From a virus, in the IMG/VR virus record IMGVR_UViG_3300042301_004325, positions 1 through 62,802 of that record: 62,802 bases of DNA; one strand, written 5' to 3'. Positions 13,785 to 50,864 of this stretch are shown here, one piece after another (position 1 is the first letter of the stretch; the number at the start of each line of letters is the position of its first letter). Both the position numbers and the translations under genes were made by a program. The notes below the pieces were generated by a model. It saw nothing but the letters and a program-made list of their open reading frames with translations, ran no database searches and was not told the DNA's origin.

Positions 13785-14333
13785 ATGAAAATAGTAATAA
13801 CTGAGTCTCAATACCAAAAATTGGTTGAAAATATTGAAATAATTGACGATATTTTAGATAAATTAGGTAAAATTGGGTACGAAAACCTTGAAAATGACGA
13901 AAAAATGACCCTAAATAGGTACTCAGAGTGGTTAAATTCGGGTCAAAAAGGTGAATTTATGGGTGAAATTACCCCTAAAAACACTGATTTTGAGGCCAAA
14001 ATAGGTGAAATATTCACTACAAATATGAGTGATGATAGTGAATTAACATTTCAATATGATTACTCGGATATATTAAAACACGAAAACATACATTACGGTA
14101 CCGTAAAATGGCATGGAGAAGAGTGGATAGGTTTAATTGCAACAGATAAAAATGATAAAATAACTGAAATTGATTTTGTTTTAGATCAAGATTTTTATTT
14201 AGATAGTGATGTAGAGAGTTTTAGCGAATATGACGACAGTAATGAAAAAAGATTACAAGACGAAATAGGTAAAGATTATAAAAGATTAGAATATTTCTTT
14301 CAAGAAGACGTAATACCTTATTTAACCGATTAA
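13785..14333 (+). CDS. Leader-bearing acidic protein
   Basis: A 182-aa protein starting with an ITESQ-type leader (K-I-V-I-T-E-S-Q-Y-Q-K). L13-V-E15 is the first candidate cleavage motif. The mature part is acidic, with a strand-rich middle containing G-T-V-K-W-H-G-E-E-W-I-G-L-I. No family is recognised. It ends 12 nt into the convergent PAP2 gene. Confidence 0.65.
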   Translation: MKIVITESQYQKLVENIEIIDDILDKLGKIGYENLENDEKMTLNRYSEWLNSGQKGEFMGEITPKNTDFEAKIGEIFTTNMSDDSELTFQYDYSDILKHENIHYGTVKWHGEEWIGLIATDKNDKITEIDFVLDQDFYLDSDVESFSEYDDSNEKRLQDEIGKDYKRLEYFFQEDVIPYLTD

Positions 14334-14930
14334 ATTTTCTTTTTTTAAATAATCAAATAGAGATTTTGCCAACTTCTCACCAAATTTTATATCTGATGGG
14401 TAATGTGCTTTAGCCATTTGTCTTGAATAGACGATATCATCTTTGATTTTTTTTAATTCAGATTTAAATTTTGGGTATTTGTAAGATAAAACTAAATAAA
14501 GTAAATTAGATTGTGTTGAATGACCCGATGGGTATGCGAAACCTTCCATAGATTTAAGCATTGGATCCGATAATTTTGAATCAATTCTAAAAGGTCTAGG
14601 TCTTTTATAAAAATTTTTTAACTCAAGTATTATTTCTCTAACGTCAAAAATTAACTTATTTATTAATTTATTTTCTTTTATATTTTTTTCTTTTAAAAAA
14701 TTAATAAAGTTTTGAGGTATATTATCTTTTTCTTGTACAAATTTTTTTTTAAGGTCTATACTTTTTAAAAAATTAATTTCTTTTTTTGTTTGTGTACTGT
14801 TATTTGATGGTGGATATAAATTTTTAAATGGGTAAAGATCAAAATTTTTGAATATATTATTTTTAATGGATTTAGTTTCCTGAATACTCATTAAATTTTT
14901 AATCCTATTAATTTCTTCATGTAATAACAT
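14322..14930 (-). CDS. PAP2-type phosphatase with prohead-type leader
   Basis: A 202-aa protein. The three PAP2/acid phosphatase motifs are present in order: K-R-P-R-P-F near residue 117, P-S-G-H-S-T near 137, and S-R-Q-M-A-K-A-H-Y-P-S-D near 172. They supply the catalytic His pair and phosphate-binding Arg residues. There are no obvious transmembrane helices and no signal peptide, so it is a soluble enzyme, closer to class A acid phosphatases than to lipid phosphatases. The N-terminus (LLHEEINRIKNLM) matches the second leader class and ends I16-Q-E18. That suggests the enzyme is packaged in the head and delivered to the host. Substrate unknown. Confidence 0.8.
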   Translation of the reverse strand: MLLHEEINRIKNLMSIQETKSIKNNIFKNFDLYPFKNLYPPSNNSTQTKKEINFLKSIDLKKKFVQEKDNIPQNFINFLKEKNIKENKLINKLIFDVREIILELKNFYKRPRPFRIDSKLSDPMLKSMEGFAYPSGHSTQSNLLYLVLSYKYPKFKSELKKIKDDIVYSRQMAKAHYPSDIKFGEKLAKSLFDYLKKENLIG

Positions 14931-16160: not shown

Positions 16161-17936
16161 TTAATCTAAACTATTTTTATATTTTTTAAAAAATTCTAAA
16201 GGTATTTTTTCGTGACTCAAAGAAGTCTTAGATAGTATCCCCTTTTCTTCTAAAGATTTTAATCTATCTCTAGTATTTGGATATCCTGTCCAATTGGCGT
16301 GATTTGATAAAGATGCGACATTTGAGGGTAATCCCCCGTTTTTGTATTTTTCATAATGATTTTCTTCAGTAGATGGATCTATTAATCCTATAAATGAATA
16401 TTGATTACTATTTGAAATAATTTCATCCCACACATCAATACCACCGGCAGAAAACCCTAATATTTTATTAACTTGATTATTTTTCTTTATGTTTGGTAAA
16501 TCTGTAGAAGTGTAAGGTAAAAATATAACGTCTTTTTCTGATAGACCCGCAGCAACCCATTGAGATTTCATCCATTCTGGCGTTGCATAATCAGTACCAC
16601 CAAAAACCACCGTTTTTGATGGAAATACGTTTTCTTCATCCTCAATATATTCTTGACCACCAATGTAGTATAAATGCCACGGTTCGGCACCTCTAAGAGG
16701 TCCTTGAGTTTTATAAGTCACCTCAAACCCATAATCTTCACATTTGTTTGCGACCCAATTTTTTACTTTAGGATTTGTATCCCACCACGATGGGTCTGTA
16801 CTAAATATATCAAAAGCCTTTCCTGTATGGTGTTGACTAAACCCTGGTAATGAGTTCCATTTTTGAGTATCATCTATACCCCTAACTTTAGCCTTTGAAC
16901 CAAAATTGGTGACTTGATCTTCAGGTGGTGTAGAAATACTTCTATAACCTGATACTATGTTATAAGGATATTTAACTGAGGGGTTTGCTTTTTTACAATC
17001 ATTTATTAATTGGTTAATTGCTGCTAACGCATCTGAATTAACACTGCCGGCATCGTCTCTGGTTTGACCTTCTTGTTTCATTTCACGATCCAAATGTAAT
17101 TCAGTAATTTCTACACCCCAGTCCGTTTTTAATTTTTTAATTGCATTTTGTACAGGTATTGGTAATCTATCAAATATTTTAACATTTGAAGATCCTCCAC
17201 CTGAGTTGTTATAACCACCGCCTGACCCAATGTCCTCTATATTTTTTTTAAAATTATCTTCCATTCCTGGATTTATAAAAACAATATACTCGTCATCAAT
17301 TTCTGCCGGATCAGTATCTTTAACTGTTTTTTTAACTCCATTTTTTTCTTCAAGTCTATCAGTTGCGTTTGGTGGGTAATATTCAAAATGTTCGTGGGGA
17401 CCTGTTGATGGTTGGGTATTACCTACCTCTTGGAAAATGGATCCCGCAGGTATTATGTCCCCTTCATTAAAAAAAACTTTACTGTAATGACAATGTTTAG
17501 TTTTGGATCCGTCGTCATGTTCTATAGTAAAACATAATGGTCCTATTTTACCCATTTTGCCTGATTTAAGTATGGCCATTGGTGTGCCAAAAGGCGCACC
17601 ATAATCTCTTCCTGCGTGCCAGTGCCAATTACAATATCTTGGTTTTCCTTGTGCACATAAACTAGCGATAGGCCCCCTCCACCCATATTTATTACCTCTT
17701 CTTACGGATGCTAACGTTATGTACGATGGGTTTAATTTACTAACATTTATTTGATTTGCAGACCCCTTACCAATCTCACTTGGACTAATATATCTAACAA
17801 ATTCTCCTTTATCTCCAAATTCTACAGCACCTATTACATCTCCGGTCTTTTCACCTGTTGGTAAAAAAGTATTTTTTCTGTATAAACCTTGCTCAGAAAT
17901 TTGATTTTTAAGTATATCTAATAATTTGATTGACAT
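16161..17936 (-). CDS. Three-domain cell-wall hydrolase: M23 + M15 peptidases + alpha/beta hydrolase
   Basis: A 591-aa protein. Residues 1-15 form a leader (S-I-K-L-L-D-I-L-K-N-Q-I-S-E) ending I13-S-E15 before Gln16. The M23 endopeptidase part (about 70-200) has H-A-G-R-D, H-C-H-Y and H-E-H-F zinc-binding motifs. The M15 carboxypeptidase part (about 330-430) has S-G-Y-R-S, Q-H-H-T-G-K-A-F-D and E-P-W-H-L-Y-Y. The C-terminal part (about 445-591) has a nucleophile elbow G-F-S-A-G-G and a following L-I-D-P-S-T, as in serine hydrolases. It should cut peptide cross-links of peptidoglycan and perhaps an ester. The start at 17936 was chosen because the leader begins there and a TATTTAT box lies upstream. 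The leader suggests a packaged entry enzyme rather than only an endolysin. Confidence 0.88.
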   Translation of the reverse strand: MSIKLLDILKNQISEQGLYRKNTFLPTGEKTGDVIGAVEFGDKGEFVRYISPSEIGKGSANQINVSKLNPSYITLASVRRGNKYGWRGPIASLCAQGKPRYCNWHWHAGRDYGAPFGTPMAILKSGKMGKIGPLCFTIEHDDGSKTKHCHYSKVFFNEGDIIPAGSIFQEVGNTQPSTGPHEHFEYYPPNATDRLEEKNGVKKTVKDTDPAEIDDEYIVFINPGMEDNFKKNIEDIGSGGGYNNSGGGSSNVKIFDRLPIPVQNAIKKLKTDWGVEITELHLDREMKQEGQTRDDAGSVNSDALAAINQLINDCKKANPSVKYPYNIVSGYRSISTPPEDQVTNFGSKAKVRGIDDTQKWNSLPGFSQHHTGKAFDIFSTDPSWWDTNPKVKNWVANKCEDYGFEVTYKTQGPLRGAEPWHLYYIGGQEYIEDEENVFPSKTVVFGGTDYATPEWMKSQWVAAGLSEKDVIFLPYTSTDLPNIKKNNQVNKILGFSAGGIDVWDEIISNSNQYSFIGLIDPSTEENHYEKYKNGGLPSNVASLSNHANWTGYPNTRDRLKSLEEKGILSKTSLSHEKIPLEFFKKYKNSLD

Positions 17937-17940
17937 AATA

Positions 17941-17955
17941 TATAAATAAATATAC
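17941..17955 (-). promoter_or_regulatory. TATTTATTTATA promoter box
   Basis: On the minus strand an ATATTTATTTATATAT run lies within 18 nt of the start at 17936, making this lysin a member of the TATTTAT promoter class. Confidence 0.45.
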
Positions 17956-18026
17956 AATATAATAATTACATATAGTTAAATGTTAAACTATTCAATATTT
18001 AACACTACTAATTTATTTTTTAAACG

Positions 18027-18033
18027 TATTTAT
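18027..18033 (+). promoter_or_regulatory. TATTTAT promoter box
   Basis: Ends 7 nt before the start at 18041 and probably drives the three secreted-protein genes. Confidence 0.5.
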
Positions 18034-18040
18034 TGTATAT

Positions 18041-18634
18041 ATGAAATTTATAATTACCATTTTATTTTTATTTATTTTTACAATTACATTTGGTCAATGT
18101 AACGGTGTACAATCTTTTACTTTAACACCTCCTCCCGTTGGTGGTACTTATTTACCTGGTCAAGTTGTAACCATGTGTTATACTATGAATGGGTATACTC
18201 AGGCAGGGGTCAATTGGATTGAGGGGTTTGATTTAACATTAGGTCCAGGTTGGGCTTCAGTTGCTCCACAAACTGCACCTGCAAATTGTGGAGGAAATAC
18301 TACAGGAGGACAATGGGTTTGGAATACATCGGTAACATCTACAACCACCCCAATAGTTACTGTTGGTCCTGGATACTTTTTTGATTTAACAGTTGATGGT
18401 AATCCAGGAAATGATTTTGGTGATTCAGGTTCTTGTTTATGGACATTTTGTGTAACACTAACAGTTGCAAATGTATGTACACCACAAAACTTATTATTAC
18501 AAGTCACTCCCGGTTCAGATGGTATGTGGGGTAGTTATACCAGTACAAGTTGTGATGTTGCAACACCATTTACAGTATTTAACGGAACAATAAACACAGT
18601 CCCAATTGTACTGGGACCAATAACACACAATTAA
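18041..18634 (+). CDS. Secreted Ig-like protein, first of three
   Basis: A 197-aa protein. A signal peptide (residues 1-18, ending T-F-G) is followed by Gln19. The mature part is a Thr/Gly/Pro-rich beta-sandwich resembling repeat modules of flavobacterial surface adhesins, with several Cys. The C-terminus ends G-P-I-T-H-N, close to the end of the next protein (S-P-I-Q-H-N). Such endings look like module boundaries of a longer adhesin. It is co-transcribed with the two following genes. Confidence 0.75.
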   Translation: MKFIITILFLFIFTITFGQCNGVQSFTLTPPPVGGTYLPGQVVTMCYTMNGYTQAGVNWIEGFDLTLGPGWASVAPQTAPANCGGNTTGGQWVWNTSVTSTTTPIVTVGPGYFFDLTVDGNPGNDFGDSGSCLWTFCVTLTVANVCTPQNLLLQVTPGSDGMWGSYTSTSCDVATPFTVFNGTINTVPIVLGPITHN

Positions 18635-18640
18635 ATTATT

Positions 18641-19222
18641 ATGAAAAAGGTTTTATTTATTTTAATGACAATGATTTCAAGTATTTCATTATCACAATTA
18701 TCAACAGTTAACCCTGATACGGTTTGTTATCAATCAACCGCACTTTCAACCTATACTATACCTTCGGTTGGTTCGGGTACTTATACTTGGACAGTTGCTG
18801 CTCCTGGAGTTATTACTGCAGGTCAAGGTACTAATTCAATATCTGTCAATTGGTCAACCGCCTCCCCTGGTTTGATACCAAATGGTGTGTCTGTTACATA
18901 CTCATCACCAGCACCCGCAAACTGTCCTGCAACCCCTGTAAACTTAAATGTGTTGATCTATCAGGTTATACCTACAATCACGGCTTTAGGTCCATTTTGT
19001 GAATCTGATCCTTGTGTGACTTTAGTTGGGTCCCCTGTAGGTGGAACTTGGTCAGGAACGGGAGTTGTGGGTAATCAATTTTGTCCTGATAACGTAACGA
19101 ATGGTACCAACGCAACTTCAACTGTAACGTATACTGTTGGCTCTGCCGGATGTACATTTTCTACTTCAGTTGTTGTTCCTGTTTATGGGACACCGACATT
19201 GTCACCTATCCAACATAACTAA
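18641..19222 (+). CDS. Secreted PKD/Ig-like protein, second of three
   Basis: A 193-aa protein with a signal peptide (1-18, ending S-L-S) and Gln19 as the first mature residue. It contains two beta-sandwich modules. The first has the PKD-like G-T-Y-T-W-T-V; the second has C-V-T-L-V-G-S-P-V-G-G-T-W-S-G-T-G-V, a motif common in Bacteroidetes gliding-type surface proteins. It starts 6 nt after the first gene. It is probably exported together with, and assembled onto, the CHU_C-domain protein encoded next. Confidence 0.8.
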   Translation: MKKVLFILMTMISSISLSQLSTVNPDTVCYQSTALSTYTIPSVGSGTYTWTVAAPGVITAGQGTNSISVNWSTASPGLIPNGVSVTYSSPAPANCPATPVNLNVLIYQVIPTITALGPFCESDPCVTLVGSPVGGTWSGTGVVGNQFCPDNVTNGTNATSTVTYTVGSAGCTFSTSVVVPVYGTPTLSPIQHN

Positions 19223-19789
19223 ATGAAATTTATTTTTTTCATATCATTTTTATTTATGTCCTTAGTTACTTCGGCACAACAACTTATTGAATTGTGTGCC
19301 GGAGAAACTAAAACCGTTACTTATTTCTCAACATCAACAGGTGATGGGACTACGTCATGGACTGTTAATGGTATTGTATATAACACAGATGAATTAACAT
19401 ACACATATAGTAATGAGGGAACATATAATATCGTTGTGAAAAGAGAAAACGGTCCTTGTTATGTTGAAGAAACTTTACAAGTGGTTGTTACCGAGTGTCC
19501 TGGCGTAACTTATTGGGTTCCTAATTGTTTTACACCTGATGGTAATGAACATAACCAAGTGTTTGGTCCTATTATGATTGATGGGTTTGATGTTAATGGT
19601 TTTGAGTTCAGAATATTTAATAGGTGGGGTAATGTAGTTTGGGAATCACAAGACCCTAACGGAAAATGGGATGGTACATATAAAAATAAAAATTGTACTG
19701 ACGGTGTATATATATGGACTTTAAGATTCAACATTTTTGGTGATGATGGAAAAGTTTTTGATCATGGTCATTTAACCCTTATCCGATAA
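19223..19789 (+). CDS. Secreted protein with CHU_C/T9SS type B sorting domain
   Basis: A 188-aa protein. After a signal peptide (1-18, then Gln19-Gln20) comes an Ig-like module with T-S-W-T-V-N-G. Residues about 93-188 form a clear gliding-motility C-terminal (CHU_C) domain, with V-P-N-C-F-T-P-D-G-N, F-R-I-F-N-R-W-G-N-V-V-W-E, W-D-G-T-Y and D-G-V-Y-I-W-T-L. In Bacteroidetes this domain sends proteins through the type IX secretion system to the cell surface. A phage copy implies display on the infected cell or incorporation into virions as a host-binding adhesin. Its stop overlaps a small convergent gene. Confidence 0.88.
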   Translation: MKFIFFISFLFMSLVTSAQQLIELCAGETKTVTYFSTSTGDGTTSWTVNGIVYNTDELTYTYSNEGTYNIVVKRENGPCYVEETLQVVVTECPGVTYWVPNCFTPDGNEHNQVFGPIMIDGFDVNGFEFRIFNRWGNVVWESQDPNGKWDGTYKNKNCTDGVYIWTLRFNIFGDDGKVFDHGHLTLIR

Positions 19790-37130: not shown

Positions 37131-37994
37131 ATGGCGAATAAAAAAATCTCCGAATTACCATATATAGATGGTGGTAAAATATCAGGAAATACTTTGGTTC
37201 CTTTGGTTACGTATTTTAGTGCCACGACAGGCGATACGGTACACACATACGTTAGTGATTTACAAACATATTTAACTTCAGGAATAACGGGAAATACGGT
37301 GGTAGTTGGTGATTTTTTACCATTAAGTGGTGGAACTGTTACAGGACAAACGTTTTTTACATCAGGATTAACTATTACGGGAGATACGATTATAATAGAC
37401 TCAACAGGTACCTCAACCGCCATTGATACATCAACAAGAGAATTGGTGGATCCATCATCCTTTGTGAGTGTAGATTGGGGTCAAAGAAGTATGTACGATG
37501 ATTTAGGTACATCCGCCTTAGAGTGGGCTTCAAGTAAAAGAAAACTATTAGATATAGCTTCAGCTGGCTCTGTAAATTGGGGGGATAGGATTTTAACAAA
37601 ATCTGACGGAGCAACGATTTCTTTTGATTGGGAAAACGGAATATTAACAGGCCAAACAAATATTGAGTCCTCAACAATATACGCAACAACATATTTGAAT
37701 TTACCTAATGGATATTATGATACTACAGGTATAACAAGTTCTCAATCTATAACGTGGGATAAAACATATTGGGGGGTAAGTGGGTTAACAAATGTTGATA
37801 TAACTTTACCGTCAACAACATCAAAAGATGGGTATAGTTTAATAATAAAGGATGAAGGAGGAACCGCAGGAACTTATCGGATTAGGGTAACACCAACGTC
37901 AGGTTTGATAGATGGTAATAGTTATATAGATATGAACATAAACTATATGTCACTTACTTTTGTGGCAAGAAATAATAATTGGTGGATAATATGA
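37131..37994 (+). CDS. Probable tail fibre protein
   Basis: A 287-aa, Thr/Ser/Gly-rich, strand-rich protein. The N-terminus K-K-I-S-E-L-P is a recurrent opening of phage tail fibres. The repeated L-P-L-S-G-G-T-V-T-G-Q pattern near residue 63 is the fibre motif that forms triple-beta-helix units. The C-terminal third looks like a compact beta domain that could end the fibre. Its stop overlaps the start of the next gene (ATGA). It probably takes part in host recognition. Confidence 0.75.
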   Translation: MANKKISELPYIDGGKISGNTLVPLVTYFSATTGDTVHTYVSDLQTYLTSGITGNTVVVGDFLPLSGGTVTGQTFFTSGLTITGDTIIIDSTGTSTAIDTSTRELVDPSSFVSVDWGQRSMYDDLGTSALEWASSKRKLLDIASAGSVNWGDRILTKSDGATISFDWENGILTGQTNIESSTIYATTYLNLPNGYYDTTGITSSQSITWDKTYWGVSGLTNVDITLPSTTSKDGYSLIIKDEGGTAGTYRIRVTPTSGLIDGNSYIDMNINYMSLTFVARNNNWWII

Positions 37995-42756: not shown

Positions 42757-44490
42757 ATGAAAAAAAATTTATTAGAGAGTGAAATTAAAAGGTTTCAAGA
42801 ATTATCAAATTACGACGCAAATAATAATAGTGTATTATCTGAAAATAAAATAGATTTTTATGATAATGAAAATGAAAGAATTTTAGAAATGCACCATAGA
42901 GCAATTAATAAAGAATTTTTAACTGAGGATGAAGATGATCCTGTAGTTAGAAAAAAGTTTGATTTTGGTGCAAAAGTCAAAGGCCAAAAATACCCAAGGT
43001 GGTGGGGTAAACATGGTGGAGGGGCCGAAGCTAGATTAACTTTAGATTACAAAAAATATAGAGAAATAGATAAAGAACTTAATACCGGTGCCGATCTACT
43101 AGCAAAAATGAATGAAGATATAGGTGGTAATAAAGATTGGGCAATGATACCACCAAATGTTAAATCTGCACTGGCTAACGGATTCAACGAATTTTTACAA
43201 GTCGCATCAAAGTCAGAACACATAAAAAAATTAAGCAGACAAAAAAGAAGAGATTTAAGAAAAATATTTAAAAAGGCTCAAAGATGGAAATTCAAAATAG
43301 TTGATTTAAAAAATAATCTATCACAACCCGAAGAAGGTAAAAAGAAAGCGTCAAAAATAAAACCAGAACTTACAGTGACGTTTCCACAAGGAGAGGGAGC
43401 ACCAACAGAAGAACAAATAATAGCAGAAATAAGAGAAAGTTTAAATGATATTAACATGGCTAACTGTGAAGGTCCAACTATTGGTGCACCTAGTTGTAGT
43501 GCTTTAGTAGGTCAAAATGTGACTGTCACTGAAGATGATGGTACAAGTTACACTTTAGTACAACCTGTATCTAGAGAAGTATCAAAAGGTGCGTTAGAAA
43601 CCGCAGTTGTTTATGAGATGATAACACCAGCATCATATAAAAGAGGTGAGGGGGGGACGTATTTTTTACAAGACACCAAACAAATTGTTATACCTAATGA
43701 AGATTCAGGTTTTGCCCCTGGTAGCGATGTTGTTGATACCACTTATGTTGATAAAACTGTTCAAACAATATATGATCAACTTATGAATACCACCTTTGAA
43801 CTTACAGATGAAAAGACAAAAAAAGTTATAGTTACTAAAACGGGTAGGGATATAGTTGATGATATAAATGCTGGATTAACAAAATCTGCAATTGTGTTTG
43901 AATATATGGACACCACCTCATCGGCAAGTAATATTTGGTCAGGAAAAAAAGCTTTAGATTTTACACATAAAAATGATGGAACAAAGGTTAAAAACCTTAA
44001 TGACTTACCTACAACTGGTGAGGATAAATCGAACACAAACTTAGCAATAAGAAGAAATAAAAATTTAACAGCAGCAGTACTTGCGGCTTTAGACAAACTA
44101 CCGGGAATTAAAAGGTATGGTGATTTTAAATTAAGTCAAGAATTGAGGGTTACCGATACGGGTGGTAAAACAGATGATACAAGAGATAAAAGTAAATATC
44201 CTAATATTGGACAATATGGAGGATTTAAAGTTGGGTTTATGGCATATGTTGAAGAGGCTGTGGTAAAGAAGGAAAAAACGGGAGTAAAAGGTAAGATCGG
44301 CCAAAGTTTAATAAAACTTGTATGGGTTGGTGCCCCTGATACGGGTGTGGAATTTAATTTTGATATTGACTTTGACTGGTGGCCAGGAACAACAAATAGA
44401 ATAGTTCATAAAAATATTTTTACGGGTCAATTACAGGCAGGAGGTGCTTGGTGGAGTAAAAATTTAAGAGGTTATAATAAAGTTTTTTAA
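42757..44490 (+). CDS. Leader-bearing protein with two candidate cleavage sites
   Basis: A 577-aa protein. The leader (N-L-L-E-S-E-I-K-R-F-Q-E-L) is followed by V-L-S-E near residue 29 and F-L-T-E near 55, so it may be processed twice. The N-terminal domain (about 60-190) is basic; a beta-rich middle has T-V-T-E-D-D-G-T-S-Y-T-L-V; the C-terminal domain (about 420-577) contains W-V-G-A-P-D-T-G-V-E and a Trp-rich end. No family is recognised. It is probably a packaged protein. Confidence 0.68.
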   Translation: MKKNLLESEIKRFQELSNYDANNNSVLSENKIDFYDNENERILEMHHRAINKEFLTEDEDDPVVRKKFDFGAKVKGQKYPRWWGKHGGGAEARLTLDYKKYREIDKELNTGADLLAKMNEDIGGNKDWAMIPPNVKSALANGFNEFLQVASKSEHIKKLSRQKRRDLRKIFKKAQRWKFKIVDLKNNLSQPEEGKKKASKIKPELTVTFPQGEGAPTEEQIIAEIRESLNDINMANCEGPTIGAPSCSALVGQNVTVTEDDGTSYTLVQPVSREVSKGALETAVVYEMITPASYKRGEGGTYFLQDTKQIVIPNEDSGFAPGSDVVDTTYVDKTVQTIYDQLMNTTFELTDEKTKKVIVTKTGRDIVDDINAGLTKSAIVFEYMDTTSSASNIWSGKKALDFTHKNDGTKVKNLNDLPTTGEDKSNTNLAIRRNKNLTAAVLAALDKLPGIKRYGDFKLSQELRVTDTGGKTDDTRDKSKYPNIGQYGGFKVGFMAYVEEAVVKKEKTGVKGKIGQSLIKLVWVGAPDTGVEFNFDIDFDWWPGTTNRIVHKNIFTGQLQAGGAWWSKNLRGYNKVF

Positions 44491-45083
44491 TCTAATTTTT
44501 TATTAGATAAAACCGAAACAACACATAAGGTATTAGATTCTATATTAAAATAAACACTGACCCCTATTTTATTTAATCTACTATTTTCTACTGTATATTT
44601 GTGACCTTTAGAGTTTAACCAAGCATTTAAAACGTAATTTGATATAATTTTTTCACTTCTATCGGGATTATTGATTATTCGTGATAAACCACCTATTCCA
44701 AAAATAATTTCATAAACATTATTGAACTTATTTTCTTTGTCAAATTTTAATACTCTATCATCTGAAGTTTTTAATATTTCATTATCACCCACATATGTTA
44801 ATTTGTCTACGGTTCTAACTTCGGTGTGTGATATGTAGAAACTTTTTGAATTATCCCCATTTAAAACCTTTAAATATTCATTATGATAACTTGACGCACT
44901 ATCTAAAACAGATTCTCTATTTACTGTGATGATATTATTTTTTGTTCTGTGTTCGTTAATACTTTCAATAATTGAATTTTCAAGATCTAAAATAAATTTT
45001 GAAATACTGTCATGTCTATCTTTTTTTTGAGAAAAAGAAAACAAAGATAAAAATAAGAATAAAGAAAAAAGAAAAGTTTTCAT
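44487..45083 (-). CDS. Secreted CAP/SCP-domain protein
   Basis: A 198-aa protein with a signal peptide (1-18, ending S-F-S) then Gln19. The mature part resembles a CAP (SCP/PR1) domain: S-I-N-E-H-R-T-K-N-N near residue 40, S-S-Y-H-N-E-Y-L near 68, and L-N-A-W-L-N-S-K-G-H-K-Y-T-V near 158. In bacteria, CAP proteins are exported and of varied role. Expression from a perfect host-type promoter suggests production by the infected cell in the early phase. It ends overlapping the convergent gene by 4 nt. Confidence 0.75.
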   Translation of the reverse strand: MKTFLFSLFLFLSLFSFSQKKDRHDSISKFILDLENSIIESINEHRTKNNIITVNRESVLDSASSYHNEYLKVLNGDNSKSFYISHTEVRTVDKLTYVGDNEILKTSDDRVLKFDKENKFNNVYEIIFGIGGLSRIINNPDRSEKIISNYVLNAWLNSKGHKYTVENSRLNKIGVSVYFNIESNTLCVVSVLSNKKLD

Positions 45084-49146: not shown

Positions 49147-49632
49147 TTAGTTTACTGGTATGTACTCAACTAAAATAGTTACATTTTCACTTTCATCATA
49201 AAAATAACGACAAGGACTTTTTGACATATCTGAGGTGTAAACAAAATTCATATCATATTCTTGAATTATTGATCCATTTTTCCACTTGTATCCTGTGTAA
49301 ACAAATTTAATTGAGTTTGTTTCTTTTTTGAAATTAAATACTTGTCTTTGTAATGCTACTAAATCATTTTCATCAATAACTATAAAATCTTGATGACTTA
49401 CCTCATCTATCAACACCATTACCTTTTCGTTTTTTGGTGTTACTATTGTGTCGTAACTTTTGTTTTTAATGTTGTAAAAACTTTGTCTTCCTTTTGCTTT
49501 ATACATTACTTGACCACTTGAAAGGAACTCTATTTTTAAATTCCACGGACCTTCATCACTACTATATTCTTGTGGTTGTGAAAAAGAGATAAAACTTAAA
49601 ACTGTAAGTAAGAAGATCAATAGTGTTTTCAT
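49147..49632 (-). CDS. Secreted protein, cassette family A
   Basis: A 161-aa protein with a signal peptide (1-18, ending I-S-F-S) then Gln19. The mature domain is beta-rich, with G-Q-V-M-Y-K-A-K-G-R near residue 39, D-F-I-V-I-D-E-N-D-L near 83 and Y-T-G-Y-K-W near 110. It is a paralogue of the protein at 50391. It is exported to the periplasm or surface from a consensus host promoter. Function unknown; an envelope role in the infected cell is likely. Confidence 0.72.
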   Translation of the reverse strand: MKTLLIFLLTVLSFISFSQPQEYSSDEGPWNLKIEFLSSGQVMYKAKGRQSFYNIKNKSYDTIVTPKNEKVMVLIDEVSHQDFIVIDENDLVALQRQVFNFKKETNSIKFVYTGYKWKNGSIIQEYDMNFVYTSDMSKSPCRYFYDESENVTILVEYIPVN

Positions 49633-50366: not shown

Positions 50367-50396
50367 AAAAAGGGAGTCTAACTCCCTTTTTTATTT
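50366..50396. terminator. Bidirectional terminator
   Basis: AAAAAGGGAGT pairs with ACTCCCTTTTT around a CTA loop between convergent genes. Confidence 0.8.
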
Positions 50397-50864
50397 TACA
50401 ACAATATACTCAATTAATACTGTTAGATTTTCAATCTTATCGTAAAAATACTTACAAGGATTTTTAGACAAATTTTTTGTGTAAATGAAATCAATATCAT
50501 ATTCTTGTTTAATCAAACCACCCTCCCATTGGTATCCTGTGTAATAGAATTTATCTTCATTTGGTTTTTGTTCAAACCCATATATTAATCTTTGTAGAAC
50601 AGTTATATCATTTTCTTGAATCACAATAAAATCATTTTGAGAATATCTGTCAACTAAGATATTAATATTCTCATCAATCATTGTCACCGAACTATCAACC
50701 GAATTAGATTTTATGTCCTCAAATGATAACTTACCTTTAGCTTTATACATTATTTGACCTTTGGATTTAAATTTTAATTTGTAATCCCATATATCTTCAT
50801 TTTCTTGTGAAAAGGAAAAAGAAGAAATTAAAAAAAGAAAAGTTAATTTAAAAAAGGTTTTCAT
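50391..50864 (-). CDS. Secreted protein, cassette family B
   Basis: A 157-aa paralogue of the protein at 49147. It has a signal peptide ending S-F-S, then Gln20. The same motifs recur: G-Q-I-M-Y-K-A-K-G-K, D-F-I-V-I-Q-E-N-D-I and Y-T-G-Y-Q-W, with the ending N-P-C-K-Y-F-Y-D. A host-type TATATTTG box lies 31 nt upstream. Function unknown. Confidence 0.72.
   Translation of the reverse strand: MKTFFKLTFLFLISSFSFSQENEDIWDYKLKFKSKGQIMYKAKGKLSFEDIKSNSVDSSVTMIDENINILVDRYSQNDFIVIQENDITVLQRLIYGFEQKPNEDKFYYTGYQWEGGLIKQEYDIDFIYTKNLSKNPCKYFYDKIENLTVLIEYIVVK

Follow-up and report, generated by a model that had tools for sequence, protein, structure and literature searches.

A conserved cassette of large phages that may encode a surface adhesin split into three exported chains

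What do three adjacent phage genes for exported proteins make together, when only the last ends in a sorting domain of the type IX secretion system (T9SS)? The window, that is, the whole stretch of DNA analysed here, is an IMG/VR virus record 62.8 kb long that encodes a T4-like terminase and portal. It contains three consecutive plus-strand open reading frames, P1, P2 and P3, of 197, 193 and 188 residues and spaced within 6 nt of one another (Table 1). An earlier note, made from the letters alone, had read them as signal-peptide proteins derived from one long adhesin. Our preferred reading, to which we give a probability of roughly 55%, is that P1–P2–P3 constitute one surface adhesin made as three exported chains, docked through their C-terminal tails and displayed via P3 and the host T9SS, so that the surface of the infected cell is remodelled.

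Table 1 Features of the cassette and related elements in the window
Feature	Position	Strand	Description
TATTTAT promoter-like box	18027..18033	+	Motif ends 7 nt before the P1 ATG; TATTTATTGTA at 18027-18037
P1 (slot 1)	18041..18634	+	Exported beta-sandwich protein, 197 aa
P1 signal peptide, residues 1-18	18041..18094	+	Gln19 at predicted mature start; invariant in 42 homologues
P1 C-terminal tail P-I-T-H-N	18617..18631	+	I/V-x-H-N/D end in 65/65 slot-1 homologues; 0/68 fused forms
P2	18641..19222	+	Exported PKD/Ig-like stalk protein (predicted), 193 aa; PKD_6, model, 45-row alignment
P2 signal peptide, residues 1-18	18641..18694	+	Followed by Gln19, invariant in 45 homologues
P2 PKD_6 domain, residues 24-75	18710..18865	+	Profile match
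P2 C-terminal tail P-I-Q-H-N	19205..19219	+	65/65 PIxH[N/D]; aligns with fused interdomain linker, e.g. SPITPYN
P3	19223..19789	+	Exported anchor protein (predicted), 188 aa; ATG immediately 3' of the P2 stop
P3 signal peptide, residues 1-18	19223..19276	+	Followed by Gln19, invariant in 44 homologues
P3 N-terminal PKD-like domain, residues 19-93	19277..19501	+	Weak PKD match, E 0.044; matches in fused proteins
P3 type B T9SS C-terminal domain (CHU_C / TIGR04131)	19517..19786	+	Pfam 52.4 bits, NCBIfam 37.8 bits
N-terminal tag genes, list 1 (starts)	597, 2864, 3561, 4359, 5431, 13785, 15392, 24092, 47828, 48466, 49758		
N-terminal tag genes, list 2 (positions)	10163, 14322, 21907, 23783, 27140, 30540		

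Three probably exported proteins in a recurrent cassette

All three frames begin with a hydrophobic segment followed directly by Gln19, which is invariant in alignments of 42 P1, 45 P2 and 44 P3 homologues; the consecutive signal-peptide genes described by the earlier note are thus confirmed. According to PMC5837995, the Bacteroidetes Q-rule predicts a glutamine at this position for signal peptidase I substrates. The dN/dS values between the window and its relatives (0–0.18) point to purifying selection on P1, P2 and P3. Because the invariant Gln19 fits the Q-rule and dN/dS is low, the genes are kept by selection and the proteins are very probably exported in a Bacteroidota host. Four further window proteins carry Q-rule-like signal peptides (1207-1629, 44487-45083, 49147-49632 and 50391-50864), so export by this phage does not seem to be limited to the cassette.

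P3 ends in a CHU_C domain, as first noticed from the letters (52.4 bits against a Pfam cut-off of 27), and also matches the type B family TIGR04131 up to its last residue, at 37.8 bits and barely above the NCBIfam cut-off of 35. The Ig/PKD-like modules ascribed to all three proteins are found in P2 (PKD_6, 35.8 bits against a Pfam cut-off of 25) and weakly in P3, whose N-terminal domain is matched in a bacterial fused protein (L200) and, through the L130 homologue, in a phage fused protein (L202); P1 has no family match and is predicted to be a beta sandwich (pLDDT 79). The P1 model returns generic Ig-like matches from the PDB, none at E 0.001. P2 is likewise modelled as a beta sandwich (pLDDT 88), and both models lose confidence at the last residues. 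The best PDB match of the P2 model is GhpA, the grappling hook of Aureispira (9fly; TM 0.36, E 3e-4), a Bacteroidota surface protein; this weak match is common to many Ig proteins and we claim no kinship.

The P1–P2–P3 set, carried by large viruses of Bacteroidota, recurs in about 70 viral contigs of up to 436 kb with its order kept and with dissimilar flanks. Searches of viral contigs recovered 23 loci for P3, 56 for P1 and, for P2, the best 80 of 105 candidates. None of the other window genes recurs in more than a minority of cassette loci.

Single-chain relatives and the shared tail

The idea that one long adhesin was divided into parts that are exported separately has strong support from single chains that carry the modules in cassette order, and from a bacterial fusion of P2 with the first P3 domain. 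In the 634 kb phage LR745206, one chain of 732 residues is tiled by all three modules: a slot-1 protein (the position that P1 occupies; here L105) matches up to residue 400, P2 of L130 matches 402-558, and P3 of L130 matches 554-732. Another 68 distinct IMG/VR viral proteins, mostly of about 735 residues, are fusions of slot 1, P2 and P3. On a 665 kb contig, a bacterial gene codes for a single chain of 400 residues comprising P2, the first P3 domain and a type A sorting domain (pairwise E 6e-28 for P2 and 4e-5 for the first P3 domain). In bacteria, homologues of the long slot-1 form make up the N-terminal part of proteins that run from about 1000 to more than 3300 residues; the complete giants end in a CHU_C-like domain, and each of the three scanned scores as type B. 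A genome scan with the P2 alignment returned no bacterial relatives of P2, and a later six-frame search found them, with P2-like repeats lying inside long bacterial T9SS-type proteins. The 642 kb phage LR756502 (L203:4379-9391) encodes, near topoisomerase-like and rhomboid-like genes, an adhesin of 1670 residues that combines a P1-like domain with many SprB-like repeats and ends in a CHU_C-like region.

A tree built from 26 split and 49 fused forms needs only 2–3 changes of label, compared with 22 in shuffles, with bootstrap support not settled and the fused rows L260, L261 and L263 doubtful. These three rows sit apart from the others at the end of a very long branch, probably as a result of mis-slicing. 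The bacterial fused gene is placed among the fused forms, a possible hint at a change from fused to split. Two records, G006 and G015 (L163 and L150), each encode a split cassette together with a separate single-chain adhesin, and the split form is therefore not merely a replacement.

The similar tails of P1 and P2 (PITHN and PIQHN), which the earlier note had pointed out, are present far beyond chance. In all 65 distinct P1/P2 pairs the slot-1 protein ends in I/V-x-H-N/D and P2 in P-I-x-H-N/D, and the search patterns that found the homologues did not include the tail. A PIxH[N/D]-stop pattern has 32 matches in 18 phage records (2.63 Mb), of which 31 are P1 or P2 genes, against 4 in a reversed control; in five Bacteroidota genomes (17 Mb) it is not enriched (2 against 6 in the control). 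Where the slot-1 protein ends in Asp, as in two pairs, P2 does likewise, which is only a hint at a common partner, as the two loci may be related. The tail codons vary synonymously across the 65 pairs, ruling out a DNA or RNA signal, and the stop is nearly always TAA. An intein-like role for the final His-Asn is also ruled out, since there is no splicing domain and Asn is the last residue, as is stop-codon read-through joining the chains, since each next frame has its own signal peptide.

The PIxHN tail is absent from all 68 distinct fused viral proteins. At the junction of slot 1 and P2, fused forms read VVGPITYN-DTVC and split forms VLGPITHN-stop; at the junction of P2 and P3, the fused ISPITPYN-EFYEIC corresponds to LSPIQHN-stop, followed by QQxIELC in P3. 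By this alignment the tail occupies the place of the interdomain linker of the fused form (GPITYN-D, SPITPYN). Its P-I appears inherited from, or common to, the linker, and its final H-N specific to split forms and nearly fixed. The presence of P-I in fused-form linkers would also fit a tail that is a mere remnant of the old linker, capping the last strand of each domain and having no binding role. We regard this as improbable: none of 30 linker types between slot 1 and P2 in fused forms contains a His, H-N is almost invariant after the split across differing domain content and length, and the models place the tail outside the strands, with low confidence. Residues specific to split forms that might mark a docking site are few at the P2 N-terminus and otherwise scattered, with no clear pocket.

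The tail is also kept where P1 itself is not. Some phages replace P1 by proteins of 262–632 residues, all ending in the tail, that contain SprB repeats, a glycine-rich ALK/LTK-like domain, or a galactose-binding-like domain with a P1-like domain. SprB repeats score above cut-off in the slot-1 proteins L129 and L105, and the P1 of the window lacks them. Single linkage at 100 residues groups the slot-1 proteins into only three clusters, because many of the proteins have SprB-like repeats in common; the idea that they are wholly unrelated families was dropped on this account. Judged from the sequences, a fair statement is that modules are exchanged before a constant tail, and P1 is probably the exchangeable, adhesive module of the cassette.

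Proposed export route and assembly of the chains

The earlier note had also assigned the operon to T9SS export. Export itself is well supported by the invariant Gln19, and the domain scores support the T9SS route for P3; neither a type A nor a type B T9SS C-terminal domain is detected in P1 or P2 (Pfam and NCBIfam, E 0.5), and for this reason these two are putative surface proteins. Type B substrates require cognate PorP/SprF-like shuttles (PMC12618676), and SprB binds the PorP-like SprF (PMC9143113). No PorP/SprF was found in 19 phage records, many of which are fragments, and four bacterial genomes of candidate host relatives contain 6–15 matches each; P3 would therefore need shuttles of the host.

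In the mechanism that we propose, P1, P2 and P3 would cross the inner membrane by Sec and, as their sequences support, be cut before Gln19. The host T9SS would then recognise P3 through its type B C-terminal domain with a host PorP/SprF shuttle, and P3 would anchor on the cell surface, as domain membership and published work on such substrates suggest. With P1 as an exchangeable head and P2 as a stalk, PIxHN-COOH may dock P1 to P2 and P2 to P3, re-joining the chains either in the periplasm or at the cell surface, and the assembly could be carried out, or displayed, together with P3. Expressed from the phage's own promoter class, such an adhesin might remodel the surface of the infected cell; its most likely roles, which are speculative, are masking or altering phage receptors and contact between cells or with a substrate. 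The earlier note had suggested that the proteins may coat the cell, block superinfection, affect gliding or join virions, roles that are equally hypothetical.

Re-joining by the tail is the simplest reading, since the two chains without a sorting domain, P1 and P2, share a tail at the site of the lost linker. A different division of labour would have P1 and P2 acting in the periplasm and P3 alone reaching the surface, with the tail as a periplasmic retention or quality-control signal. That the T9SS domain is confined to P3, and the tail to exactly the two proteins without it, would suit such an arrangement, which we nonetheless consider unlikely, since the surface-adhesin modules of slot 1 (SprB repeats, glycine-rich and galactose-binding-like domains) sit in T9SS proteins of bacteria, and in fused forms one T9SS domain serves all parts.

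Alternatively, the three proteins could belong to the virion, as fibres or decorations that reach the periplasm by export and are added to particles at lysis or later. Ig-like domains occur on phage particles, the promoter-like box of the cassette is shared with genes around a predicted virion protein at 37979, and the cassette of the window borders an M23/VanY peptidoglycan hydrolase. Against this, virion proteins are not characterised by invariant Q-rule signal peptides or by a T9SS domain. In PHROG, P1–P3 have no match beyond a weak hit of P3 to an entry of unknown function; the flanks vary from phage to phage, and virion genes do not recur next to the cassette. The fused form of the 634 kb phage lies near tRNA-synthetase-like and elongation-factor-like genes. 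A virion role thus seems doubtful to us.

Within the surface-adhesin reading, a more specific and more tentative idea is that PIxHN-COOH is a new C-terminal docking tag. It would join an exported protein that lacks a T9SS domain end to end to a T9SS-anchored partner, which carries it to the surface, so that a virus can build a modular adhesin from separate genes. We think this possible, with the odds somewhat against it; no case of such piggy-back export through the T9SS was found in this analysis. If the surface-adhesin reading is true, large Bacteroidota phages use the secretion and gliding machinery of the host to assemble a modular adhesin on the cell that they infect. The five-residue tail offers a handle for testing and might reveal a general route to the surface for proteins without T9SS domains, and the split and fused pairs would be a natural experiment in which a covalent linker becomes a C-terminal recognition peptide.

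Known systems, expression and neighbouring genes

SprB-type gliding adhesins and other type B substrates of Flavobacteriia resemble the cassette in SprB repeats (PF13573, in some slot-1 proteins), PKD repeats and the TIGR04131 domain, and the same export route is expected. Their homologues found here in bacteria are single chains of about 400 to more than 3300 residues, whereas the cassette has three chains, each with a signal peptide of its own, and a common C-terminal tail; adhesive modules and T9SS domain, united in one polypeptide in SprB-type adhesins, lie in three stopped frames in the window and its relatives. The single-chain adhesin of huge phages (LR745206 and the 68 IMG/VR proteins) has homologous modules in the same order, but is one chain, lacks the PIxHN tail and occupies a branch of its own in the tree. 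Phage genes with T9SS sorting domains are also known from Cryophage, whose cargo comprises an endoglucanase, a glycoside hydrolase and a PA14 protein with type A domains (PMC7468147), and from crAss-BACON cluster 2 phages (PMC6949934). The Cryophage authors suggest that this cargo alters the host surface or excludes superinfection (PMC7468147); unlike the cassette, it consists of single chains, and neither a split nor a shared tail is reported. Phage-encoded T9SS cargo is thus already known, and what appears new is that an SprB-like adhesin is split into three parts, that this arrangement is widely conserved in large phages and that it comes with a conserved C-terminal tail. No paper describing a three-part split adhesin with such a tail was found in the literature searched, mostly outside subscription journals.

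The TATTTAT box upstream of P1 had been taken as a sign of late expression. The motif lies within 30 nt upstream of 28 of the 68 window genes (3.4 expected; 7 for its complement), most often 4–6 nt before the ATG, and precedes 41 of 56 homologous cassettes, all of which marks it as a promoter-like element of this phage group. The timing is a plausible extension of this, as the box precedes large genes near the predicted virion protein. Were TATTTAT a -10 element, its distance of 4–6 nt from the ATG would make the transcripts nearly leaderless.

The hydrolase that adjoins the cassette (16161-17957, minus strand) combines an M23 peptidase with a VanY carboxypeptidase and has a tag-like N-terminus, and a PAP2 phosphatase with a weak likeness to undecaprenyl-diphosphatase (14322-14930, minus strand) carries an N-terminal tag. 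About 20 of the 77 predicted proteins of the window fit either of two such tag patterns ('MKRIVRLTESDLTRIVRRVINEQ' / 'MKIVITESQ' or 'LHEEINRIKNLMSI'), against about 0.6 expected from internal rates, with the patterns chosen after inspection (Table 1). These tags are possibly T4-like capsid-targeting sequences, carried by proteins that are packaged into the head.
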